DNA of 64,000 nt from Brockia lithotrophica. GTDB lineage: Bacteria > Bacillota > Bacilli > Thermicanales > DSM-22653. The notes beneath the pieces were generated by a model that did no database searches, had not been told where the DNA came from, and saw nothing but the letters and a program-made list of their open reading frames with translations. Below, one piece after another: positions 33,198-48,242 of the stretch (its first letter is position 1; each line of letters starts with the position of its first letter). The stretch lies in NCBI RefSeq assembly GCF_003633725.1, contig NZ_RBIJ01000005.1, forward strand, positions 1 through 64,000. The letters run 5' to 3'. The position numbers were made by a program, and so were the translations under genes.

Positions 33198-33235
33198 AAA
33201 AAAGAGGCGGTGGAAGGGAGGTCCTCCACCGCCTC
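33198..33235 (-). terminator. Terminator of the nuo operon
   Basis: On the minus strand an 11-bp stem (GAGGCGGTGGA / TCCACCGCCTC, ten-base loop) is followed by six T residues, 20 bases after the nuoN stop. Confidence 0.93.
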
Positions 33236-33255: not shown

Positions 33256-34749
33256 CTAAGCACCGAACATCCACGTGAGCGCTTGAAAGAACGACTCCGG
33301 CCACACTCCGCCGAGAAGCGTACCGATCGCCGTGAAGACGAGGACGGCGGCCTGTGGCCACGGAAGGGCGACGGGTGCCTCACTTTCTCCTTCGCGCATG
33401 AAGATCATACGCAAAATCTGGAAGTAGTACACGTACGCGATGAGGCTCGCCGCCGCCATGGCGATGGCAAGCGCCCGTTGCCCACCCCACATCGCGCCGA
33501 GGAAGAGGTAGAGCTTTCCCGTGAAACCCGCAGTCAGGGGAATCCCCGCCAAAGAGAGGACGAAGAGGGTCATAAACGCCGCAAGGAGCGGGCGCCGGCG
33601 GTAAAGGCCGCGGAGGGCGTCGAGGCTCTCGTCGCCGCGTTCGCGCGAGACGACATCCGCCACGGCAAAGGCGCCCAAATTCATGAAGAGGTAGGCGAGA
33701 AGGTAGAAGAGCATCTGTTCCAGAGCGAGCGGACTGGAGGCAGCGAAGGGGACGAGGATGTACCCGGAGTGGGCGAGGCTCGAGTACGCGAGAAGGCGCT
33801 TGAGGTTCGTCTGGCGAAGCGCCACGAGGTTGGCGACGAACATCGTAAGGACGCCAATCCACGCCGCAAGTCCGGCGACGAGCTGGGAGAATCCGCTCCA
33901 CATTCCGGGGAGACCGATGAAGAGGGGGTAAAACAGGCGGAGGAAAAGGGCAAATCCGGCCGCCTTAGAGACGACGGCGAGAAAGGCGGTCGCCGAAGTT
34001 GGCGCTCCCTCGTACACGTCTGGCGCCCAGAGGTAGAGGGGAACGCTGGAAATCTTGAAGGTCAGCCCCGCAAAGACGAGCACGACGCCGAGGACGGCGA
34101 GGGGATAGACGTCCCAGGGCATTTCCGCAAAGCTCTGAAACAGGCGCGGCACGTCCGTCTCTCCAGCCACGCCGACGAGGAACGACAGCCCGTAGAGGAA
34201 GATGCCGCTCGCGATCCCCGAAAAGACGACGTACTTAAAGGCCGCCTCCTGCGAGGCCGTGCGCCTCCGCCGCAGGGCGACGAGGACGATCGCCGCTACG
34301 GTGAGGATCTCCATCCCCACGAAGAGGACGAGCAGGTCGTAGGACGACGCCATGAGCGCCGCGCCGAAGGTCGCCAAAAGGAGGAGGGCCGAGCGTTCTC
34401 CTTCGAGCTCGGCGTATTCACCAGTCACCTCCGCCCGACGCCCGGGCGTGAGGAGGAGGGAAAAGAGCGCGCCGAAGAGGAAAATCCCTTGGAAAAACGC
34501 GGAAAACCCGTCCAAAAACAGCGCCCGCCGCCCGAAAAGGGCGGTGGAGGGGAGGAGGGGGGTTCCCCCGACGAGAAACCTCTGCACGTCTCCTACGAGA
34601 AAGGCGAAGGAGAGGAGGACGAACACCGAGGCCAGATAGGGGAAACCCAGCCGTCGCTCGGGGGGGACGACGAGGAGGAGCAAGAGGAGGAAGATCCCGC
34701 CGAAAAGAAGCGTCCCCAGGGGGGCGAGAAGCAGGAATAGGTCGCTCAC
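33256..34749 (-). CDS. nuoN: NADH-quinone oxidoreductase subunit N
   Basis: NuoN is an antiporter-like proton-pumping membrane subunit of complex I. The 497-residue protein is almost entirely hydrophobic (about 13-14 helices) and has the N-type motif KISSVPLYLWAPDVYEGAPT and a broken-helix region with Lys (KAAGFALFLRLFY). This separates it from NuoM, which has a different Trp-Leu-Pro-Asp-Ala-His-type sequence. The start is GTG 34749, one base after the nuoL stop. It is the last gene of the operon before a strong terminator. Nuo clusters normally have nuoM between L and N; here it is missing. Confidence 0.94.
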   Translation of the reverse strand: MSDLFLLLAPLGTLLFGGIFLLLLLLVVPPERRLGFPYLASVFVLLSFAFLVGDVQRFLVGGTPLLPSTALFGRRALFLDGFSAFFQGIFLFGALFSLLLTPGRRAEVTGEYAELEGERSALLLLATFGAALMASSYDLLVLFVGMEILTVAAIVLVALRRRRTASQEAAFKYVVFSGIASGIFLYGLSFLVGVAGETDVPRLFQSFAEMPWDVYPLAVLGVVLVFAGLTFKISSVPLYLWAPDVYEGAPTSATAFLAVVSKAAGFALFLRLFYPLFIGLPGMWSGFSQLVAGLAAWIGVLTMFVANLVALRQTNLKRLLAYSSLAHSGYILVPFAASSPLALEQMLFYLLAYLFMNLGAFAVADVVSRERGDESLDALRGLYRRRPLLAAFMTLFVLSLAGIPLTAGFTGKLYLFLGAMWGGQRALAIAMAAASLIAYVYYFQILRMIFMREGESEAPVALPWPQAAVLVFTAIGTLLGGVWPESFFQALTWMFGA

Positions 34750-34750
34750 C

Positions 34751-36610
34751 TCACCAGAGCCCTCCTTTCCACAGCGCCAAGAAGAGGAGAAGGGCGATGC
34801 CCAGGGTGGCCACGGCGCCGTACGTCTGCACGCGTCCGTTCTGCACGGCGCTCCCGAGGCGCGCAAGGGCCTCCGTTCCGAGGACCACGAGGGCGACGGT
34901 CCCTTCTACGACGAAGGTTTGGATCGCCTGCGCGGCGCGACCGAGGGCGACCGCCCCCTGGACGAAGACGATGTGGTAGAAATCGTCGATGTAGTACCGG
35001 CGGGCGAGCACTTGGAATACGGGGCGGGTGAACCGGCCCCACGGGGCAAGGCGCGTCCCCTGAAGGACGGCGTAGCCGCCCACGAGGAGCCCGAGAAGTC
35101 CGACGCTCACCCCCAAGAGGACGTCCAGACCAAAGACGGGAGGGTGGATTTCGGAAACTGTCCCGTCTGACGCAAAGAAACGGCTGAGAAGCGGTGCCCA
35201 GGGAGTTTCCAAAAACCCATACCCGAGGGCGAAGGCGGTGAGGACGTACAGGGGGACGAGCATGACGGGCGGGCTTTCGTGCACCCCATGGGGGGTGCGG
35301 TTCTCGCCGAAAAACACGTAGCCGACAAGCCTCCCGACGTAGAGGGCGGTGACGAACGCGGCAGCCAGCCCCATGCCGTACAGGGCGGGGTTGGCCTCCA
35401 ACGTACGCTCGAGGATGAACTCCTTGGAGAAGAACCCGGCAAACGGAGGAATGCCCACGAGGGCAAGCGCGCCGGCCAAAAAGGCGATACTCGTTCGCGG
35501 CAGGCGACGAAGGAGGCCGCCCATCTCGCGAATGTCCTGCGTCCCCGTGGCGTGGATGATGCTCCCGGCGGCGAGGAAGAGGAGCGCCTTAAAGTACGCG
35601 TGGGCCGTGAGGTGGAAGAGCCCCGCGACGTACGCCCCGACGCCCAGGGCGAGCGTCATGTGTCCAAGTTGGCTGATCGTCGAATAGGCCAAGACTCGCT
35701 TGATGTCGTACTCCGCCAAACCCATCGTCCCGGCAAACAGGGCGGTAAAGGCCCCAACCCAGGCGACGACATCGAGGGCGTAGGGGGCCGCGAGGAATAC
35801 GGGGTAGGCGGCGGCGACGAGGTACACCCCGGCGGCGACCATCGTGGCCGCGTGAATGAGTGCGGAAACCGGCGTCGGACCCTCCATGGCATCCGGCAGC
35901 CACACGTGAAGGGGGAACTGCCCGGACTTCCCTACCGCCCCGAGGAAGAGAAGGAGGGCGATGGCCGTAAGGGCCCAATCGGGAATCACCCCTCCCGATA
36001 CGGCGGCAAAGAGGTCGGCGTCGTCGAAGCTCTTCACGTAGGCAAAGATGAAGAGCAACGCGGCAAAAAAGCCGACGTCGCCTACGCGCGTGACGAGGAA
36101 GGCCTTTTTCGCGGCCTCCCGCGCAGCAGGCTTTTCAAACCAAAACCCGATGAGCAGGAAAGAGGCGAGACCCACGATTTCCCAAAAGAGGTAACGGGCG
36201 AGCATGTTGGCAGAAAACACAAGGGCGAGCATCCCAAAGGTGAAGAGGCTCAAGTGCGTGTAAAAGACGGGATACCGAGGATCGCCCTCCATGTACCCAA
36301 CCGAATACACGTGTACGAGGAAGCTCACGAGAGAAACGGTGAGGAGCATGATCGCGCTCAGGGCGCTCACTTCGAAGCGCACGTCGACGACGAGATCGCC
36401 CAAGGTGAGCCACGTAAGCCGCGGCCCGACCACCGGCCCCTCTTGCAAGAAGCGAACGAGGAGGAGCGTGGCGGCCCCGGCGGAGAAAAGGGTGGCCGCG
36501 ATCCCCACGAAATGGGCGCGACGGCCGAGCGAGGGGCCGAAGGCGAGGAGAAGGGCGAACGACGCGAGCGGTGCGAGGACGACCAGATACCCTAAGCCGA
36601 GGAGGTCCAC
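34751..36610 (-). CDS. nuoL: NADH-quinone oxidoreductase subunit L
   Basis: NuoL is the distal proton-pumping antiporter-like subunit, with a lateral C-terminal helix. The 619-residue length is normal for L alone, so this is not an L-M fusion. Motifs include GKSGQFPLHVWLPDAMEGPT, ALIHAATMVAAGVYLV, FWEIVGLASFLLIGFWFEK and KRVLAYSTISQLGHM. Start is GTG 36610 with GGAGGTG eight bases before it; GTG 36622 is too close to that site. Confidence 0.95.
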   Translation of the reverse strand: MDLLGLGYLVVLAPLASFALLLAFGPSLGRRAHFVGIAATLFSAGAATLLLVRFLQEGPVVGPRLTWLTLGDLVVDVRFEVSALSAIMLLTVSLVSFLVHVYSVGYMEGDPRYPVFYTHLSLFTFGMLALVFSANMLARYLFWEIVGLASFLLIGFWFEKPAAREAAKKAFLVTRVGDVGFFAALLFIFAYVKSFDDADLFAAVSGGVIPDWALTAIALLLFLGAVGKSGQFPLHVWLPDAMEGPTPVSALIHAATMVAAGVYLVAAAYPVFLAAPYALDVVAWVGAFTALFAGTMGLAEYDIKRVLAYSTISQLGHMTLALGVGAYVAGLFHLTAHAYFKALLFLAAGSIIHATGTQDIREMGGLLRRLPRTSIAFLAGALALVGIPPFAGFFSKEFILERTLEANPALYGMGLAAAFVTALYVGRLVGYVFFGENRTPHGVHESPPVMLVPLYVLTAFALGYGFLETPWAPLLSRFFASDGTVSEIHPPVFGLDVLLGVSVGLLGLLVGGYAVLQGTRLAPWGRFTRPVFQVLARRYYIDDFYHIVFVQGAVALGRAAQAIQTFVVEGTVALVVLGTEALARLGSAVQNGRVQTYGAVATLGIALLLFLALWKGGLW

Positions 36611-36640
36611 CGCCGAGCACACCTCCGTTTCTGCGGTAGG

Positions 36641-36970
36641 TCAGTGTTTGAGGGAATCGTACTCGTCGGCCCAAGAGGTTCCCGTAAGGCGTGCGAGGGA
36701 AATCGTCACCGCAAGCCCTAAGGCGAGCTCCGCCGCCGCAATTACGATCGTAAACAGGGCCAGAAGTTGAAGGACGCCGGGATTCGCCATCGCCCCCGGG
36801 GAAACGAGGGGGTAGTGGGAAAAGGCGAGAAAGTTGAGGACGACGCCGCCGAGCATCACCTCTAAGGACAAAAGCACAAGCACCGCATGGCGCCGCGTAA
36901 ACGCGCCGTAAAGCCCCAAGGCGACGAGCATCGCCCCGAGGAGGAGGTATTGGAGAAGCGACGCGCTCAT
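36641..36970 (-). CDS. nuoK: NADH-quinone oxidoreductase subunit K
   Basis: The 109-residue membrane subunit has three helices and the conserved membrane Glu residues of the proton path (LLSLEVMLGGVVLNFLAF and VIAAAELALGLA). Its ATG overlaps the nuoJ stop (ATGA), so translation is coupled. A gap of 30 bases leads to nuoL. Confidence 0.94.
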   Translation of the reverse strand: MSASLLQYLLLGAMLVALGLYGAFTRRHAVLVLLSLEVMLGGVVLNFLAFSHYPLVSPGAMANPGVLQLLALFTIVIAAAELALGLAVTISLARLTGTSWADEYDSLKH

Positions 36971-37461
36971 GGTTCATCCTCCCTTGCGACGAGGACGGCC
37001 CCTATGAGGGCGAGAGCGAGAAGGAGCCCCCCGAGGACAACGGCGAGGCCGTAGGCGGGATCAAAGGCGAGTTCTCCGATGTCGTGCAGGCGGACAAACC
37101 CCTCTCCGGGCGCACCAAGGAGGGGGAAACGCGCCTTCCAGAGAAACGCCGCCACGAGGAGGAAAAAGCTCAGGGCGGAGACGAGCCCGAGGATCTCCCC
37201 CGTGGTGGTCCTCCCTTCCTCCCGATGGCGGGAGAGCATCACGCCAAATGCGGCGAGGATCGTTACGGCACCCGCGTACACGAGGATTTGAACCGCGGCG
37301 ACGAACTCCGCCCCAAGAAGGAAGTAGAGGGCGGCCAATCCGAGGAAGGCCCCCATGGCGGCAAACACCGCGTGAAGGGTCTTCCGCAGGGAGAGGAGCA
37401 GAAACGCGCTGCCTAAGGTGAGTAACGCGAAGAGGAGGAAAAACGCATAGCTCCACATCAC
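36967..37461 (-). CDS. nuoJ: NADH-quinone oxidoreductase subunit J
   Basis: The 164-residue protein has five predicted helices and the J-family core AVQILVYAGAVTILAAFGVML, including the pi-bulge-type segment used in proton transfer. The start may be GTG 37461 or ATG 37458; both overlap the nuoI stop codon. Coupled to nuoI upstream and nuoK downstream. Confidence 0.93.
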   Translation of the reverse strand: MMWSYAFFLLFALLTLGSAFLLLSLRKTLHAVFAAMGAFLGLAALYFLLGAEFVAAVQILVYAGAVTILAAFGVMLSRHREEGRTTTGEILGLVSALSFFLLVAAFLWKARFPLLGAPGEGFVRLHDIGELAFDPAYGLAVVLGGLLLALALIGAVLVAREDEP

Positions 37462-37895
37462 CGGCGGCTCGTCTCCTTCCGCACGTGGGCGAGGTTATGC
37501 GGATTTTCCGCGAGCCAGACGATGTCCTTGTGCAGGTCGTCCCGTCGGTACGCCGCATGCTCGACGGTAGCGGCCATCGTGATCGCGTCCGTCGGACAAA
37601 CTTCCGTACACAGATCGCAGAAGATGCAGATCTCGTAGTTGATCTCGTAGAAATCCAAAACCTTGCCCTTCTTCGTCGGGTCGGGGTTGGGCTTTCCCCC
37701 CAAGGTAATCGCACCCGTAGGGCAGACGTTGGCGCACTGGTTGCAGACGATGCACTTGTCCACGTAGAGGACGTGGCTTCCGCGTAGGCGGTTGGGAAAC
37801 TCGTACGGTTCGTCGGGGTAGAGGTGGGTTACCTTGGGTTCGAAAAGCTCCCGCAGAGTGACCCCGAGCCCCTTGAGAACGCCGGGGACCTTCAC
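37458..37895 (-). CDS. nuoI: NADH-quinone oxidoreductase subunit I (2x[4Fe-4S])
   Basis: NuoI carries two ferredoxin-like [4Fe-4S] clusters (N6a and N6b) that lead electrons to NuoB. The 145-residue protein has both Cys motifs: CIVCNQCANVCP (Cys48, 51, 54, 58) and CIFCDLCTEVCP (Cys90, 93, 96, 100). The start GTG 37895 has GGGAGGTG six bases upstream; the frame is open to 37940. Without NuoEFG in the operon, this subunit would be the entry point for electrons from ferredoxin or another donor. Confidence 0.94.
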   Translation of the reverse strand: MKVPGVLKGLGVTLRELFEPKVTHLYPDEPYEFPNRLRGSHVLYVDKCIVCNQCANVCPTGAITLGGKPNPDPTKKGKVLDFYEINYEICIFCDLCTEVCPTDAITMAATVEHAAYRRDDLHKDIVWLAENPHNLAHVRKETSRR

Positions 37896-37970
37896 GTGCG
37901 CCACCTCCCGAATTTCGGTTTCGCGGAACTCCGACCTCACCCCACAGGCGCTTTTCGGGGGCTTCGAACC

Positions 37971-38984
37971 TCATGCTGCGAAAGCTCGGTATACGATCGT
38001 CGCGAAGAGGTTGAGGAGGGAAACGGGGAGGAGAACCTTCCAAGAAAAGACCATGAGCTGGTCGATGCGCATGCGGGGAAACGTCGCGTGAAACCAAAAG
38101 GGCACGAAGGAAAGGAGGAGCGCCTTGAGGAGGAACCAGATCCACCCAGGCACCGCGTCTAGCCCCGGAAGCGTGCCCCCGATGGGAAGCGGATACCAAC
38201 CACCGAAGTACAGGGCCGTTGCGAGCGCTCCCATGGCCAAGAGGTATACGTATTCTCCGAGCATGAAGAGGGCGAAACGCATGCCGCCGTACTCCGTGAG
38301 GTATCCGCCGATGAGCTCGGACTCCGCTTCAGAAAGGTCGAAGGGCGATCGGTTGAGCTCGGCCACCGCGGCGACGGCAAACACGAGAAATCCGACGATT
38401 TGGGGAAACACAAACCAGACCTTCCGCTGGGCCTCTACGATGTCCGTGAGGTTGAGGCTCCCCGCGAGCACGACGACGCCTAAGGCGGAAACGATGAGGG
38501 GGATCTCGTAGGCGAGCATTTGGGCAACCGAGCGCATGGCCCCGATGAGCGACCACTTGTTGTTCGAAGACCAGCCGCCCATGAGCACGCCCACCGTAGT
38601 GAGGGACGATACGGCGATGTACAAGAGGAGCCCCACAGCAAAGTCGGAAAAGCGGAGCGTGGAAGACCAAGGCAACACGAGGAAGACGAGAAACGCCGGT
38701 GCAAAGGCGATCACGGGGGCGAGGTGGTACAGGGGGCGGTCCACCTGCGCGGGGATGATGCTCTCTTTCGCGAGGAGCTTTACGGCGTCGGCAATCGTCT
38801 GGAGAAGGCCGTACGGCCCCACGCGGTTCGGACCCAAGCGGCTCTGCATGAACCCGAGGAGCTTACGGTGCACGTAGATCGCGTACGTAGCGTACAGGAG
38901 GATGAGCGAGAGGAGGACAAGGGCGGCGACGGTGAGCCAGAGAAAGGTCGTAACGTTCGGGGGCCCCGCGAGCACTCCCGGCAT
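37971..38984 (-). CDS. nuoH: NADH-quinone oxidoreductase subunit H
   Basis: NuoH joins the peripheral and membrane arms and helps form the quinone site. The 337-residue membrane protein shows the expected RLGPNRVGPYGLLQTIADAV and, on the quinone-side loop, AELNRSPFDLSEAESELIGG, plus SWKVLLPVSL near the end. Its ATG follows the nuoD stop with no gap. It is separated from nuoI by 75 bases. Confidence 0.96.
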   Translation of the reverse strand: MPGVLAGPPNVTTFLWLTVAALVLLSLILLYATYAIYVHRKLLGFMQSRLGPNRVGPYGLLQTIADAVKLLAKESIIPAQVDRPLYHLAPVIAFAPAFLVFLVLPWSSTLRFSDFAVGLLLYIAVSSLTTVGVLMGGWSSNNKWSLIGAMRSVAQMLAYEIPLIVSALGVVVLAGSLNLTDIVEAQRKVWFVFPQIVGFLVFAVAAVAELNRSPFDLSEAESELIGGYLTEYGGMRFALFMLGEYVYLLAMGALATALYFGGWYPLPIGGTLPGLDAVPGWIWFLLKALLLSFVPFWFHATFPRMRIDQLMVFSWKVLLPVSLLNLFATIVYRAFAA

Positions 38985-40091
38985 TCAGGCATCCACCTCC
39001 CCGAGGACGATGTCGATGCCGCCAAGGATGGCGATCATGTTCGCGACGTTTTCGCCAATGAGAAGTTCGCGCAGGATCTGGAGGTTGTGGAACGAGGGAC
39101 GACGGAAATGAATGCGGTAAGGATGGGGGGACTTTCCGTCGCTGAGGATGTACACCCCCTGCTCGCCGCGGGGCATTTCTACAGAAACGTACACCTCACC
39201 GGCGGGGGGACGGATGAGCTTGGGAACCTTGCCCATGACCGGCCCCTCGGGAAGTCCTTCGAGGGCCTGGAGGACGATGCGCTTCGACTCCACGATCTCC
39301 TCGAGGCGGAGGTTCATGCGCGCCCAAAGGTCCCCCTCGCTCCGCACGGGAATGCGGAAGTCGAAGCGGTCGTAGATCGAATAGGGCTTCGCACGACGCA
39401 CGTCGTACGGCACGCCCGTGCACCGCAGGTTTACGCCCGTAAGGCCGTAGCGAATGGCCGTTTCCCGGTCGTAGCGGCCCACCCCTTTGAGTCGTGCCTG
39501 GACGATTTCGTTGCCGACAACGAGGTCGTAAAATTCCTGCATCGTGCGTTCCAAATCGTTTTCGAGGAAGGACTTTACGCGCGCGGGCCATGTCTCGTCG
39601 GGGATATCCCACTTTACTCCGCCGATGCGCATGTAGCTGTACGTAAGGCGGGCACCGGACAACTCGGCAAGGAAGTTCACGATCTTCTCTCGCTCGCGGA
39701 AGGCGTAGAGGAACGGCGTGATCGCCCCGAGGTCGAGGAGAAAGGTGCCGAACCAGACGAGGTGGCTCGCGATGCGGTTGAGCTCCATTGCGATGACGCG
39801 GAGGTACTCCGCCCGTTCGGGAACCTCGATCCCCATGAGCGTCTCGACGGCGTAGACGAGGGAGTAGTTCCCGATCATCGCCGAGAGGTAGTCCATACGG
39901 TCGGTGTAGGGGATGATCTGCGTGTACGTGAGGTTTTCCGCGAGCTTCTCCGTTCCCCGGTGCAGGTAGCCGATCACCGGTTCGGCGTCCACAACGGTTT
40001 CCCCGTCGAGCTTCACGATGATGCGAAAGACGCCGTGCGTACTCGGATGCTGCGGCCCCACGTTGAGCACGTATTCTTCTGTTCGGAGCAC
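38985..40091 (-). CDS. nuoD: NADH-quinone oxidoreductase subunit D (49 kDa)
   Basis: NuoD contributes the quinone-binding pocket beside cluster N2. The 368-residue protein has the family start VGPQHPSTHGVFRIIVKLDG (quinone-ligating His), then IGYLHRGTEKLAE, ELNRIASHLVW and the C-terminal ending ILGGIDIVLGEVD. It is a stand-alone D rather than a C-D fusion. Start GTG 40091 is three bases after nuoC. Confidence 0.96.
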   Translation of the reverse strand: MLRTEEYVLNVGPQHPSTHGVFRIIVKLDGETVVDAEPVIGYLHRGTEKLAENLTYTQIIPYTDRMDYLSAMIGNYSLVYAVETLMGIEVPERAEYLRVIAMELNRIASHLVWFGTFLLDLGAITPFLYAFREREKIVNFLAELSGARLTYSYMRIGGVKWDIPDETWPARVKSFLENDLERTMQEFYDLVVGNEIVQARLKGVGRYDRETAIRYGLTGVNLRCTGVPYDVRRAKPYSIYDRFDFRIPVRSEGDLWARMNLRLEEIVESKRIVLQALEGLPEGPVMGKVPKLIRPPAGEVYVSVEMPRGEQGVYILSDGKSPHPYRIHFRRPSFHNLQILRELLIGENVANMIAILGGIDIVLGEVDA

Positions 40092-40094
40092 CGC

Positions 40095-40595
40095 CTACAC
40101 CCCCTCGTCGTACGGCACGTAATCCTTGCGCAACGGATGCCCCACCCAATCCTCGGGGAGGAGGATCCGCCGAAGATCCGGATGGCCTTCGAAGACGATC
40201 CCCAAGAGGTCGTACGTCTCCCGTTCCGCCCAATCCGCCGCCGGCCAAACGTCCACCACAGAAGGCACGCGCGGGTTGTCGCGCTCCGCGCGAACGTGAA
40301 CGGCGAGGAGGTGCGGATGGCGAAAAGACTGCAAGACGTAGAAGACGTCAAAATAGCTCCCCATGTCCGTTCCGTGGAGGTTGTTCAAAAACGAAAAGTC
40401 CGTTTCCGGGTGGTCGCGGAGGAGGAGGGCCGCATCGTGCCACACCTCCCGCGCGACGGTCAGCGTCGGGAGGTTGCGGCTCTTCTCATTTACGTGCGGT
40501 TCCGAAACGGCCGACTCGCCGAAGCGCTCGCGCAGGAGGGCCACCACTCGGTCGAGGAAGGATTGGGCATCGGGCAAAGCGGTGTGCTCAGCCAC
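40095..40595 (-). CDS. nuoC: NADH-quinone oxidoreductase subunit C (30 kDa)
   Basis: The 166-residue protein has the NuoC core [11 protein letters not shown], then the signature [20 protein letters not shown] followed by [19 protein letters not shown]. It packs against NuoD in the peripheral arm. Its start GTG 40595 overlaps the nuoB end by 8 bases. Confidence 0.95.
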
Positions 40596-41127
40596 GGAGC
40601 ATCTCCGCCCCCTTTCGCCGTGCCTCGTAGCGGATTTTGTCCTGAAGCCGGTTAATTCCGTAAATGAGGGCTACAGGGCTGGGCGGGCAGCCGGGAATGT
40701 ACACGTCTACGGGAACGATTTGGTCGACGCCTTTGACTACCACGTAAGAGTTGATGTACGGCCCTCCCGCCGTCGCACAGCTCCCCATGGCGATCACCCA
40801 TCTCGGCTCGGCCATCTGGTCGTAGAGGCGGCGGAGGAGCGGGGCCATCTTCTTCGTCACGGTCCCTGCGACGATCATCACATCTGCCTGCCGGGGGGAG
40901 TTGCGGAAGAAGACGCCAAAGCGGTCGGCGTCGTAGTGGGCGGCACTGGTTCCCATCATCTCGATCGCGCAGCAGGCGAGTCCGAACGTGAGGGGCCAGA
41001 GCGAATTCGAGCGCGCCCAACTGAAGAGGCGATCGAGGGAGGTGAAGAGGACGTTGCGCTTCACTTCCTCTACGTCCGCTTCCGGCAGCCCTTCGAGTCC
41101 GAGGTCGAAGTCGCGCCCTACTTCCAT
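40588..41127 (-). CDS. nuoB: NADH-quinone oxidoreductase subunit B (cluster N2)
   Basis: NuoB holds the terminal [4Fe-4S] cluster N2, which reduces quinone. The 179-residue protein has the four ligands Cys52-Cys53 ([10 protein letters not shown]), Cys117 ([11 protein letters not shown]) and Cys147 (PGCPPSP). I chose ATG 41127, seven bases after AAAGGGGG, which overlaps nuoA by 10 bases. Confidence 0.95.
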
Positions 41128-41486
41128 TCCAAGGCCCCCTTTCGCCATGCGTAGGCGTACCCGAGGACGAGGAAGAAGAAAAAGCCCAGGACGATTCCCG
41201 CGGCCGTCCACCCGCGTCCGGAAAGAACGAGGAGGGCGGGGGTAACGAGCAAGACGGCGATGTCGAAGGTGACGAAGAGAAGCCCGTAGAGGTAGTACTT
41301 TACGCGGAACGCGACGCGGGCGTCCCCTTGCGCCACGTTACCGCTTTCATAAATGGCAAGCTTTTCTTCGTACACACGCCTCGGCGCGAGGAGGTCGTTG
41401 AGGAGGATGACGACCACCGGAACGCCAAAGGCCAACACGGTGAAGATGAGGAGCGCGAGGAGCGATGTGAGGTAGTTCGCCGGCAC
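41118..41486 (-). CDS. nuoA: NADH-quinone oxidoreductase subunit A
   Basis: First gene of the operon. The 122-residue protein has three membrane helices and the NuoA motif [21 protein letters not shown] in its conserved loop (the usual Cys in that loop is replaced by Asn, as in some Bacilli). Start GTG 41486 is behind GAGGGAGGGGGG. It is transcribed from the promoter at 41548-41576. Confidence 0.94.
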
Positions 41487-41547
41487 GTAAACCCCCCTCC
41501 CTCGTTTTCTCTATGTCGGTAGAGTTAACCCGCGCGTTTACTTTGGG

Positions 41548-41576
41548 ATTATACCAGGTTCCCCTCCTGTTGTCTA
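41548..41576 (-). promoter_or_regulatory. Sigma-A promoter of the nuo operon
   Basis: On the minus strand TAGACA (41576-41571) and perfect TATAAT (41553-41548) are separated by 17 bases, giving a leader of about 55 bases before nuoA. Confidence 0.9.
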
Positions 41577-41595
41577 ACAGAAAGGCCGCACAAAG

Positions 41596-41627
41596 AAAAA
41601 ACCGAGGCTGTACCAAGAAAGCCCCGG
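41596..41627 (-). terminator. Terminator of the atp operon
   Basis: On the minus strand an 8-bp stem with one G-T pair (CCGGGGCT / AGCCTCGG, ten-base loop) is followed by TTTTTTC. It lies between atpC and the nuo promoter. Confidence 0.85.
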
Positions 41628-41641
41628 CCATCCGGAAAAGG

Positions 41642-42061
41642 TCAGTCGCCCTCTGCACTCGATCCGACCTGCAGCCGTACGAGCGCCCTCCGAAGGGCGA
41701 GCTCAGCGCGCGTGTATTCCACATCCCGCGCCTTCTGGAGCGCCTTTTCCGCCTCGAGCTTGGCGCGCAGCGCACGGTCGAGATCGATCTCCTCCGGAAG
41801 TTCTGCCGCCTCGGCGAGAATCGTCACGCGGTCCCTCCGCACCTCGAGGATGCCGCCACAGACCGAGACGAGTTTCCGCGATCCGTCCGGAAAATGCAAG
41901 GCGGCCGCGTGGATGTCGAGCGTGGCGACGAGGGGAAGGTGGTTTGCCGCAATTCCGAGACCACCCTCGACCGTACGCGTGGAGAGGAAGACGACCTCCC
42001 CCGAAAAAACCTTGCGGTCGGGGGTAACGATGTCCAGGTGAAACGTGCGCGTCGGATACAC
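41642..42061 (-). CDS. atpC: ATP synthase epsilon subunit
   Basis: The epsilon subunit is part of the central stalk and can inhibit hydrolysis through its C-terminal helices. The 139-residue protein has the N-terminal beta-sandwich (FHLDIVTPDRKVFSGE, then GILEVRRDRVTILAEAAE) and a helical C-terminal pair. Start GTG 42061 follows AAGGGGGTG. Last gene of the atp operon. Confidence 0.95.
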   Translation of the reverse strand: MYPTRTFHLDIVTPDRKVFSGEVVFLSTRTVEGGLGIAANHLPLVATLDIHAAALHFPDGSRKLVSVCGGILEVRRDRVTILAEAAELPEEIDLDRALRAKLEAEKALQKARDVEYTRAELALRRALVRLQVGSSAEGD

Positions 42062-42073
42062 CGGCGCACCCCC

Positions 42074-43552
<1,479 letters not shown>

Positions 43553-44473
43553 TTACCCCTTGAGCGCCTCCGCTCCGGCCATGACCTCGGAAATTTCCTG
43601 GGTAATCGCCGCCTGACGGGCGCGGTTCATGCGAATCGTCGTCGTGCGGATGATCTCCTTCGCGTTGTCCGTAGCGCTGCGCATCGCCGCCATGCGGCTC
43701 GCGTGCTCGCCCGCCTTCGCTTCGAGTACGGCGGAAAAGATGAGCGCTTCCGCGTAGCGAGGCAGGAGTACCTGAAGAACGGCATCCGGCGAGGGTTCAA
43801 ACTCGTATTCCGCTTCCCCCTCCGAAACCGCCTCGGAAGCGTCTTCTTGGGATTGAAAGAGCCCTTTGCCCAAGGGGAGAAGCGTCACCGCCGTGGGGCG
43901 CTGTACAAGCGCGCTGTGAAAGGCGTTGTACACGAGAACGAGCTCGTCGTATACGCCCTCGGCGAAGGCCTGCACCGCCCCTTTGGCGATCTCCTGCACG
44001 TCTTCGTAGCGCGGAAAATCGCTCAGGCCGGTAACCTCTTTTACCACGGGAAATCCGCGGCGGCGGAAGAAGTCCCGCCCTTTCCGACCTACGGCGATGA
44101 GGACGAAGCGCGACCGATCTCCGCCGTGCCGCTCTTCGAGGGTGCGCAAGAGGAAGCGGAACAGGTTGGCGTTGTACGCCCCCGCAAGTCCCCGATCCGA
44201 GGTGATGAGGAGATACGCCGTGCGCTCCACGGGGCGCTGCACGAGAAGCGGCTGGCGGGAGACGAGTTCTTGGTAATCCGGCCGCGTCTCCAACCCGCGC
44301 ATTATGCCGGCGATCGTGCGCCGCAACTCTTGTGCGTACGGCTTGGCGAGGAGGGCTCGCTCCTGCGCGTGGCGCAAGCGCGAGGCGGAGATGAGCTCCA
44401 TCGTGTGCGTGATTTGCTGGGTCTTTTTGAGGCTGCGAATGCGCGATCGAAGCTCCCGCAACCCTTTGGCCAT
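43553..44473 (-). CDS. atpG: ATP synthase gamma subunit
   Basis: The rotating central stalk subunit of 306 residues. Its N- and C-terminal helices form the coiled-coil axle (LRSRIRSLKKTQQITHTMEL at the start, MNRARQAAITQEISEV near the end), and SDRGLAGAYN marks the globular domain. Residues about 205-225 include an acidic insert (EDASEAVSEGEAEYEFEP). Start ATG 44473 lies behind AGGAGGTGAG. Confidence 0.97.
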   Translation of the reverse strand: MAKGLRELRSRIRSLKKTQQITHTMELISASRLRHAQERALLAKPYAQELRRTIAGIMRGLETRPDYQELVSRQPLLVQRPVERTAYLLITSDRGLAGAYNANLFRFLLRTLEERHGGDRSRFVLIAVGRKGRDFFRRRGFPVVKEVTGLSDFPRYEDVQEIAKGAVQAFAEGVYDELVLVYNAFHSALVQRPTAVTLLPLGKGLFQSQEDASEAVSEGEAEYEFEPSPDAVLQVLLPRYAEALIFSAVLEAKAGEHASRMAAMRSATDNAKEIIRTTTIRMNRARQAAITQEISEVMAGAEALKG

Positions 44474-44512
44474 CGCGACTTCTCACCTCCTACCGCCACG
44501 TTCGGCGCAGAT

Positions 44513-46036
44513 CTAGGCCCCCGTCGCCTCCGACGTGCGGAACATCCCCTTGAAGGTTTCGATCGCCTTCTTCAGGTCTTCCTCCGGCGGGAGGTCTTTG
44601 GTCGTACGAATGTGTTCGAGGAGCTCGGGGTGTTCGGTCTCGATGTAGGCGAGGAGCTCACGCTCGAAGCGGCGCACGTCCGCCACGGGGATGTCGTCGA
44701 GGTAGCCGCGCGTCCCCGCGTAGAGGGAGATCACCTGCTTCTCTACGGGCATGGGCTCGAAGCGGTCCTGCTTGAGGAGCTCCGTGAGGCGTTCGCCGCG
44801 GCGCAGGCGTGCCAAAGTCGCCTTGTCCAAATCAGAACCGAACTGGGCAAAGGCCGCAAGCTCGCGGTACTGGGCGAGGTCGAGGCGCAGGCTTCCCGCC
44901 ACGCGCTTCATCGCGCGGATTTGCGCCGCACCGCCGACACGGGAAACGGATAGCCCGACGTTGATCGCCGGACGGATCCCGGAGTAAAAGAGGTCCGGCT
45001 CCAGGTAAATCTGCCCGTCCGTAATGGAGATCACGTTCGTCGGAATGTACGCGGATACGTCGCCCGCCTGCGTTTCGATGAAGGGTAGGGCGGTGAGGCT
45101 TCCGCCTCCCAGCTCGTCGCTCAGCTTCGCCGCGCGCTCCAGAAGGCGGGAGTGGAGGTAGAAGACGTCACCCGGGTAGGCCTCGCGCCCGGGCGGGCGG
45201 CGCAAGAGCAGGGAGAGTTCGCGGTAGGCGGCTGCGTGCTTGGACAGGTCGTCGTAGATGACGAGGGCGTGCATCCCCTTGTACATGAAGTACTCGCCCA
45301 TGGACACGCCAGCATACGGGGCGAGGTAGAGAAGCGGCGCGGGGTCGGAAGCGCCCGCAGATACGACGATCGTGTAGTCCATCGCGCCGTATTGCCGCAA
45401 GGTCTCCACGACCTTGGCCACGGACGACTCCTTTTGCCCGATGGCCACGTAGATGCAGATCATGTTTTGCCCTTTTTGGTTGATAATCGTATCCACGGCA
45501 ATGGAGGTTTTACCCGTCTTCCGGTCCCCGATGATGAGCTCGCGCTGCCCGCGCCCGATGGGGATCATGGCGTCAATGGCCTTGATCCCCGTAAGCATCG
45601 GCTCGTGTACGCTCTTCCGGTCGACGACGCTTGGCGCCGGCGATTCGACGCGGCGGTATTCCTTTGTCTCTATGGGGCCGCGCCCGTCGAGGGGCTGCCC
45701 GAGGGGGTTCACCACGCGTCCGATGAGCGCCTCGCCGACGGGGACCTCCATGATGCGGCCCGTACGGCGGACGATGTCTCCCTCGCGAATGTGGCGGTAC
45801 GGACCGAGGATGACGGACCCCACGGAATCCTCGTTCAGGTTGAGGACCATCCCCATGGTCCCACCCGGAAACTCGAGGAGCTCGCTCGCCATCGCCCCTT
45901 CAAGACCCTCGAGGATCGCGATGCCGTCGCCCACCTGAATGACCGTACCGACCTCTTCCGTTTCGACCTCTACGGTAAACTCCTCCAAGCGTTTCCGCAG
46001 GACGGCGCTGATTTCTTCCGGCTTGATCGCACACAT
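44513..46036 (-). CDS. atpA: ATP synthase alpha subunit
   Basis: The non-catalytic nucleotide-binding F1 subunit, 507 residues, with P-loop GDRKTGKT at 170-177, [14 protein letters not shown] and the arginine-finger region [19 protein letters not shown]. Start ATG 46036 has GGAGTGA about ten bases upstream and is 18 bases past atpH. Confidence 0.98.
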
Positions 46037-46054
46037 CGCCCGTCGGTCACTCCT

Positions 46055-46618
46055 TCACGAATTGACGGTTTGCTCGCCAAACACGAGGTGTCTACGGACG
46101 CGTTCGAGCTGTCCGGCGGCGCTCCCGTCGAAGAGAACTCCTCCCGCGCGCAGGCGAAAACCCGCGATGAGTTCGGGTACGTGGCGTACCTCAAGGCGTA
46201 GATCGTTTCCCAACCGGGCGGCAAACTGCGCCTGCAGTTGGGGAACGTACTCCTCGTCTTCCGGACGCGCAAGCTCGAGCACGCCGCGAACCACGCCTTC
46301 CCGGCGGTCGCGCTCCGCCCGAACGGCGTCGAGAACTTCCGGCAGCAATTCGATACGCCCCTCTCGAACGAGGAGGCGGATGAATCTCTGGAGTACCTCC
46401 GGCGCACCGGATAGGGCTTCCGCGAGCGCGGCTTCTTTTGCGGACGGAGGAAGGGAACGCGCCGCGAGGACCCGGCGCAGGTGCGGATCGAGGCGGACGG
46501 CCTCCACAAGCGCCTCGAGCACAGGGAGCACTTCGGAAAAGACACCCGCCGCAACCGCCGCATCGACGAGGGCACGGGCGTAGCGGCGGGCAATGCGCCG
46601 TCGTTCTAGGCTTCGCAT
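46055..46618 (-). CDS. atpH: ATP synthase delta subunit
   Basis: Peripheral-stalk subunit of 187 residues connecting F1 to the b dimer. It has the N-terminal RRYARALVDAAVAAG and the C-terminal signature ELIAGFRLRAGGVLFDGS. The ATG shares one base with the atpF stop codon (TGATG), so it is translationally coupled. Confidence 0.94.
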   Translation of the reverse strand: MRSLERRRIARRYARALVDAAVAAGVFSEVLPVLEALVEAVRLDPHLRRVLAARSLPPSAKEAALAEALSGAPEVLQRFIRLLVREGRIELLPEVLDAVRAERDRREGVVRGVLELARPEDEEYVPQLQAQFAARLGNDLRLEVRHVPELIAGFRLRAGGVLFDGSAAGQLERVRRHLVFGEQTVNS

Positions 46619-47148
46619 CAGCGGCTCACTTCCTCGAGGAGCTTTTCGAGGTAGGTCCTGTCGCCCTTCGCCTCTACCTCGCGGGCGAGGATCTTTTCCG
46701 CCATGGCGATCGAGAGCTCCACGGCCTCACGCCGCAGCGCGAGGATCGCCTCTTCCTTGGCGCGGGCGATGTCCGCCTGGGCATCCGCCCGGATCTTCTC
46801 TACCGCCTGCCGCGCCTCTTCGAGCATGCGCTCGCGCTCTTCTTCGGCAATCCGCTCGCTTCGACGGAGGATCTCCTCCGCCTTGGCCCGAGCTTCGTCG
46901 AGAAGCCGTCGCTGCTCCTCGATGAGCGCCTGAGCTTCCGCGCGTTGGCGGGCAGCTTCTTCTAGGTCCGCGCGAATGCGCTCGCGCCTTTCTTCGAGCG
47001 CCCGCGCTACGTAAGGCCACGCATAGCGTTGGAGCAAATACACGAGAAGGAGAAATACGACGAGCTGAAAAAGCATCGTCCCGATCTGCACGGGAAGGCC
47101 GAGGAGCGTGAGGTCACCCCCGGCCGCTTGGGCTGAAGTCTCAGGCAC
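46618..47148 (-). CDS. atpF: ATP synthase b subunit
   Basis: The membrane-anchored peripheral stalk subunit of 176 residues has one N-terminal membrane helix (about 22-42, MLFQLVVFLLLVYLLQRYAW) followed by a long charged helix. I chose GTG 47148 behind AAAGGGTGAG, because longer starts add a segment not seen in the family. Confidence 0.94.
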   Translation of the reverse strand: MPETSAQAAGGDLTLLGLPVQIGTMLFQLVVFLLLVYLLQRYAWPYVARALEERRERIRADLEEAARQRAEAQALIEEQRRLLDEARAKAEEILRRSERIAEEERERMLEEARQAVEKIRADAQADIARAKEEAILALRREAVELSIAMAEKILAREVEAKGDRTYLEKLLEEVSR

Positions 47149-47235
47149 GCGTCTCACCCTTTCGCGCGCGACTTGCGGCGGAGAAAGGCTGAGGTGGCCG
47201 GCGGCCACCTCAGCTCGATATCGTCCAACCGCATC

Positions 47236-47451
47236 TCATCGACCCAGGAGGATGAAGGCGATCACGATGGCGATGATGGGGAGTGCCTCGATGAGGGCGA
47301 TCCCGATGAACATCGTCGTGCGGAACTGACCGCCGTATTCCGGCTGGCGCGCCGTGCTGGCGATCGTCTCCTTGACCACGATGGCGTCTCCGATGGCCGC
47401 CGCGAGAGCTGCTGCAGCTGCGATAATCGCTACCGCCAAGAGGCTCGTCAT
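47236..47451 (-). CDS. atpE: ATP synthase c subunit with Ala-rich helix 1
   Basis: The 71-residue ring subunit has two helices, the loop ARQPE and the ion-binding Glu55 in IALIEALPII. The surroundings match proton-type rather than sodium-type rings. Helix 1, normally with a GxGxGxGxG-like pattern, reads AAAAALAAAIGDAIV, keeping one of the six glycines of the B. subtilis sequence and carrying Asp22 where Asn is usual. Alkaliphile c subunits with AxAxAxA form larger rings, so a larger ring is possible here. Start ATG 47451. Confidence 0.96.
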   Translation of the reverse strand: MTSLLAVAIIAAAAALAAAIGDAIVVKETIASTARQPEYGGQFRTTMFIGIALIEALPIIAIVIAFILLGR

Positions 47452-47528
47452 GTCTTCTTTTCCACCCCTTCTGTGGATTTGGTGCGATCTCCGGGATTTC
47501 CCGGGAAATCTATACCCTCGCCCAGGCG

Positions 47529-48242
47529 TCAGTGGGCTTCTACGCGCTGGGCGATGTACACCGCGGCCAAGACGGTAAAGATGAACGCCTGGATCGTTCC
47601 GATAAAGAGGCTAAACCCTTGCCAGATGAGGAGGGCGGGAGAGAGGAGAATCGCCATTAGAAAGCTGTACTTGAGGGTCCCTACGAGGAGCCCCACGAGA
47701 ACCTCGCCGGCAAAGATGTTGCCAAAGAGACGAAGGCCGTGGGTGAGGGTGTTCGTGAACGTCTCCATGAGCACGAGCAGAGGTCCGATGGGGCTCGGCT
47801 GCAAAAGCCCCTTCAGGTATCCTTTGACGCCGTTGAGGCGGATGCTCATGGCGTGCGCCGCCACGAGTACGATGAGGGCCATAGTGAGCGTCACGTGCGC
47901 ATCCGCCGTCGGGGACTTCCAGTAGCTCTTGTCCCCTACGACGAAGTTGAAGACGAGCCCCACCTGGTTGGCGACAAAGGTGTAGAGAAAAAGCGTGGCG
48001 AGGAAGGGGGAAAAGATCTTCGCCCGTTCCGAGGAAAACGCATCCCGGGCGATCCCTTCGATGAACTCGTAGTACCACTCCAACGCGTTTCCCAGACCTT
48101 GGGGGACCCCCGCCTGCGCGCTGCGCGCGCCGCGCAAGGCGAGCCAGAGAACCAAGAGGGCCGTCACCGTCGAAGAAATCGCCACGGATAGGTCGAGGTG
48201 CACACCGAAGACTTGAACCAACGGGGTCCCGTGCTCCCCCAA
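47529..48242 (-). CDS. atpB: ATP synthase a subunit
   Basis: The stator membrane subunit forming the two proton half-channels. The 237-residue protein has the essential Arg in THGLRLFGNIFAGE and a late helix pair FSLFIGTIQAFIFTVLAAVY. The start is TTG 48242, with GGCGGTGAA as the probable ribosome site. It follows atpI and precedes atpE. Confidence 0.95.
   Translation of the reverse strand: MGEHGTPLVQVFGVHLDLSVAISSTVTALLVLWLALRGARSAQAGVPQGLGNALEWYYEFIEGIARDAFSSERAKIFSPFLATLFLYTFVANQVGLVFNFVVGDKSYWKSPTADAHVTLTMALIVLVAAHAMSIRLNGVKGYLKGLLQPSPIGPLLVLMETFTNTLTHGLRLFGNIFAGEVLVGLLVGTLKYSFLMAILLSPALLIWQGFSLFIGTIQAFIFTVLAAVYIAQRVEAH

Follow-up and report, generated by a model that had tools for sequence, protein, structure and literature searches.

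Displacement of nuoM from the nuo operon of Brockia lithotrophica

Results

The nuo operon and the nuoL-nuoN junction

The window analysed here, a stretch of 64,000 nucleotides, belongs to the genome of the spore-forming thermophile Brockia lithotrophica (Bacillota), a 12-contig draft of 1.87 Mb (99% complete, 64% GC). Its minus strand carries the genes nuoA-B-C-D-H-I-J-K-L-N, in that order and directly downstream of the atp operon (Table 1). The nuoL-nuoN pair spans positions 33256-36622 and no nuoM is found in between. The TGA of nuoL ends at 34751 and the GTG of nuoN lies at 34749, leaving a gap of one base, into which no nuoM could fit. Both the stop of nuoL and the start of nuoN are clean, the latter being preceded by a ribosome-binding site (GGAGG-like). 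The initial annotation had already described this gene order, with the single base and the missing nuoM, and both the sequence and the family scores bear it out.

Table 1. Features of the nuo operon in the window, with the RuBisCO-linked nuo loci of relatives in the last row. L numbers denote extracted loci, with positions within them.
Feature	Position	Strand	Description and evidence
terminator-like hairpin	33204..33235	-	13 pairs + T tract, 3' of nuoN; consensus scan
nuoN	33256..34749	-	497 aa, GTG start, last nuo gene; TIGR01770 NDH_I_N 349 bits (cut-off 333)
nuoL/nuoN spacer	34750..34750	-	site of nuoM in relatives; sequence read, same junction in G001
nuoL	34751..36622	-	623 aa, GTG start; NF005141 634 bits (cut-off 556)
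nuoK	36641..36970	-	NF004320 64.8 bits (cut-off 57)
nuoJ	36967..37461	-	NF005168 E 2e-30
nuoI	37458..37940	-	61-69% (tblastn) to nuoI-position genes of complete nuo clusters in family/order members; 97% to G001
nuoH	37971..38984	-	NF004741 390 bits (cut-off 305)
nuoD	38985..40091	-	NF008974 618 bits (cut-off 522)
nuoC	40095..40595	-	TIGR01961 129 bits (cut-off 122)
nuoB	40588..41211	-	TIGR01957 241 bits (cut-off 143), residues 53-195 matched
nuoA	41118..41486	-	first nuo gene; NF005839 E 8e-22
promoter-like TAGACA-17-TATAAT (11/12)	41548..41576	-	between atpC and nuoA; consensus scan, putative
RuBisCO-linked nuo loci	L029 4219-18717 with L030; L032-L033; L042 22-15558; L046

NuoL also exceeds the TIGR01974 cut-off (589 bits) and carries its distal Lys in AGFFSKEFIL. 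It is thus the normal single subunit that had been proposed from the outset, and its length as called is 623 codons, the 619 given initially differing by start-codon choice only. NuoN has an N-type distal Lys in AGFTGKLYLF. Since it scores above the cut-off of its own family and below that of NDH_I_M (130 bits, cut-off 264), it is not a mislabelled NuoM. Family scores and the distal-residue signature therefore rule out both an L-M fusion and a mislabelled N, as the initial annotation had argued. Elsewhere in the operon, the translation of nuoI shows ferredoxin-type cysteine motifs, and the called nuoB ORF overlaps nuoA by ~90 bases, so that nuoB probably begins further inside this ORF. The nuo operon follows straight on from the atp operon (window 41118-48242), with the promoter-like site of Table 1 between the two.

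An intact nuoM on another contig

A search of the whole genome with the antiporter-domain profile PF00361 returned exactly three genes. Two are nuoL and nuoN of the window, and the third lies on contig C1 (match at C1:809158-810030). This last match belongs to a complete nuoM of 506 codons, which stands alone at ~C1:808936-810456 (L026 7936-9456) within this 859-kb contig. Its product scores 453 bits against NDH_I_M, and in the PDB it is closest to NdhD, Paracoccus NuoM and ND4 chains, aligned over almost the full length. All four expected catalytic charges are kept, comprising the ion-pair Glu (IFFEVVLV), the Lys residues in AVKLPMFPFHTW and VLLKLGAYG, and a distal Glu in AGFVSEVQV. At the distal position Glu occurs in NuoM only (E407 in E. 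coli), with Lys in NuoL and NuoN (PMC9271201). The three Brockia proteins follow this rule, NuoM having AGFVSEVQV, NuoL AGFFSKE and NuoN AGFTGKL. A move of nuoM to another place was one of the options raised for its absence from the operon, and the genome search settles the matter as a relocation. Replacement by another antiporter subunit, of Mrp or hydrogenase type, is ruled out, the bona fide NuoM being the only further antiporter-type gene that PF00361 finds.

In both Brockia genomes examined, nuoM is flanked by minC-minD-spoIVFA-spoIVFB upstream and rplU-ysxB-rpmA-spo0B-obg downstream; tblastn located the spoIVFB and rplU ends, and the other flanking genes were named from their translations and the usual Bacillus order. 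By eye, a promoter-like TTGTGT-18-TATAAT was found ~50 bases upstream of the gene in both genomes, which falls below the default threshold of the promoter scanner because its -35 element is weak. A strong terminator-like hairpin (15 pairs and a T tract) lies 3' of the gene. Given these two elements, nuoM looks like a one-gene transcription unit with its own predicted signals. The genes on the rplU side of nuoM differ between the two species, being ABC transporter genes in one and MFS-like and lipoprotein-like genes in the other. This site, inside the usually tight spoIVFB-rplU region, therefore seems prone to insertions.

The second Brockia genome

The second genome of the genus (G001, ~1.7 Mb) comes from another Brockia species. 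Its nuo operon likewise occupies the atp-nuo-murA locus and its nuoL-nuoN junction is identical apart from point changes near the stop and start codons. Its nuoM is also a lone gene on a different contig from the operon, in a matching neighbourhood. NuoM is 93% identical between the two species, and the codon differences comprise 107 synonymous against 35 non-synonymous changes. The shared junction and a lone gene conserved in this way speak against both an assembly error and gene decay; as judged from these substitutions, purifying selection maintains nuoM in the two species.

The ancestral locus and NuoM phylogeny

Order- and class-level relatives were compared, comprising G002 and G004 (Hydrogenibacillus-like members of Brockia's family), G005, G025 and G043 (Kyrpidia-like) and several Paenibacillaceae-type clusters. 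The standard copies of G002 and G004, G005 and several of the Paenibacillaceae-type clusters have a complete nuo operon after the atp operon, with contiguous nuoL-M-N, and then murA-spoIID-spoIIQ. The operon in the window occupies this same ancestral atp-nuo-murA locus, and it is therefore nuoM that left the operon.

Brockia NuoM branches within the clade formed by the NuoM proteins of its own order (100/99), and the concatenated other nuo subunits place Brockia within the same order clade (100). NuoM has therefore not been swapped for a distant one. An origin from a distant donor is ruled out by this placement together with the base composition of nuoM, which matches that of nuoL and nuoN.

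Discussion

The genome encodes the full set NuoA, B, C, D, H, I, J, K, L, M and N, ten of them in the window and NuoM on C1. A PF01512 search for NuoF gave no match in the genome, the same search being positive in 9/14 controls. Brockia most likely has an 11-subunit complex I without the NADH-oxidising module, as judged from the search for NuoF. The same 11 subunits, NuoM among them, already appear in a published legend on the reconstructed metabolism of B. lithotrophica AL31 and neighbouring organisms (Kadnikov et al. 2018, PMC5928048). Candidatus Carbobacillus altaicus and Hydrogenibacillus schlegelii have the identical subunit set, including NuoM and again without the NADH-oxidising module (PMC5928048), but in Brockia nuoM is encoded outside the operon. 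Examined relatives of this kind share the atp-nuo-murA location with Brockia.

We are therefore confident that this is an ordinary 11-subunit complex I with three antiporter modules, one of which, NuoM, is provided in trans by a gene transposed away from the operon. The gene has moved from the nuo operon to the spoIVFB-rplU region, where it would form a separate unit using its own promoter-like and terminator-like signals. NuoM made in trans would assemble between NuoN and NuoL as usual, and a complex without NuoEFG would keep its three antiporter modules and presumably a normal proton stoichiometry. Very probably, then, the gene order alone is unusual and the enzyme itself is normal, so far as can be read from sequence. 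A parallel exists in cyanobacteria, in which ndhD, encoding a NuoM-type subunit, lies apart from other ndh genes and its product is likewise made in trans. However, several ndh genes are dispersed there and ndhD is multi-copy, whereas in Brockia one gene has gone from an otherwise intact operon.

Two other accounts of the missing gene must be weighed against this relocation. The initial annotation had considered an enzyme with two antiporter modules, in which L docks directly to N and fewer protons are pumped per electron pair. The absence of the gene from the operon speaks for such an enzyme and nothing else does, whereas three antiporter-type genes are encoded and an intact NuoM with M-type catalytic residues is under purifying selection in the two species; we regard it as very improbable. 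Loss of nuoM from the operon through a collapse or misjoin during assembly is conceivable because L, M and N are homologous. However, the junction is clean, with a ribosome-binding site. The independent G001 genome has the identical junction, so that this is not a local assembly deletion, and its nuoM again lies apart from the operon, on another large contig and among conserved genes. The chance of an artefact is accordingly close to nil. Separate transcription of nuoM could also be imagined to give these hydrogen-oxidising autotrophs a variable proportion of NuoM to the other subunits, so that complex I would be assembled in one form with the middle pump module and in another lacking it, an idea to which we give hardly any credence.

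The origin of the displacement is a separate matter and leaves the enzyme unchanged. Like Brockia, the RuBisCO-linked nuo operons of order-level relatives (G002, G004 and G025/G043) have nuoL directly before nuoN and nuoM elsewhere. However, they are second copies beside a complete nuoLMN operon, with nuoM after transketolase, whereas Brockia has one operon and a lone nuoM. A single ancestral event common to Brockia and these Hydrogenibacillus- and Kyrpidia-like operons, with nuoM orphaned later, would account for the adjacent L-N pair in both operon types and for the NuoM tree, in which all displaced NuoM (Brockia and the RuBisCO-linked operons) form one group (92/89). Against this, the Brockia operon lies at atp-nuo-murA and not at RuBisCO, and the other ten subunits place Brockia outside the displaced group (99 SH-aLRT). 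Forcing that group gave p-AU values of 0.079 with the ten subunits and 0.045 with L and N only, and NuoM itself does not reject the alternative to the group (p-AU 0.157). Two independent displacements are therefore mildly favoured over one, and a shared event is possible yet rather unlikely.

The relocated nuoM is a gene-order curiosity and no new form of complex I. No paper describing nuoM relocation itself was found in the literature. The result removes a false lead, in that the Brockia enzyme is not a natural two-pump complex I, and it is a warning to surveys that judge how complete complex I is from the genes in its operon, by which this genome would be called "nuo-partial". It also provides a small comparative case of nuoM leaving its operon, in a group with a second nuo operon tied to Calvin-cycle genes.

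In these second operons, which stand beside RuBisCO genes in G002, G004 and G025/G043, nuoL and nuoN are adjacent and nuoM immediately follows transketolase within the Calvin-cycle cluster. After nuoM comes a LysR-type regulator in G002 and G004, and in G025 a ribose-5-phosphate isomerase B-like gene with nuoA next to it (names of the surrounding genes were taken from translated sequence). The Kyrpidia-like second copies fall within the clade of the other order, which suggests that the whole cbb-nuo block was transferred. Brockia has rbcL, rbcS and prk at C5:117782-120812 (L045 7782-10812), on the same contig as the window. L045 contains no nuo gene, and no nuoM remaining in Brockia's own Calvin-cycle cluster was found. 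This locus lacks the cbbX, ferredoxin-NADP reductase-like and transketolase genes found beside RuBisCO in G002 and G004; transketolase-like and transaldolase-like ORFs lie ~7 kb from it.
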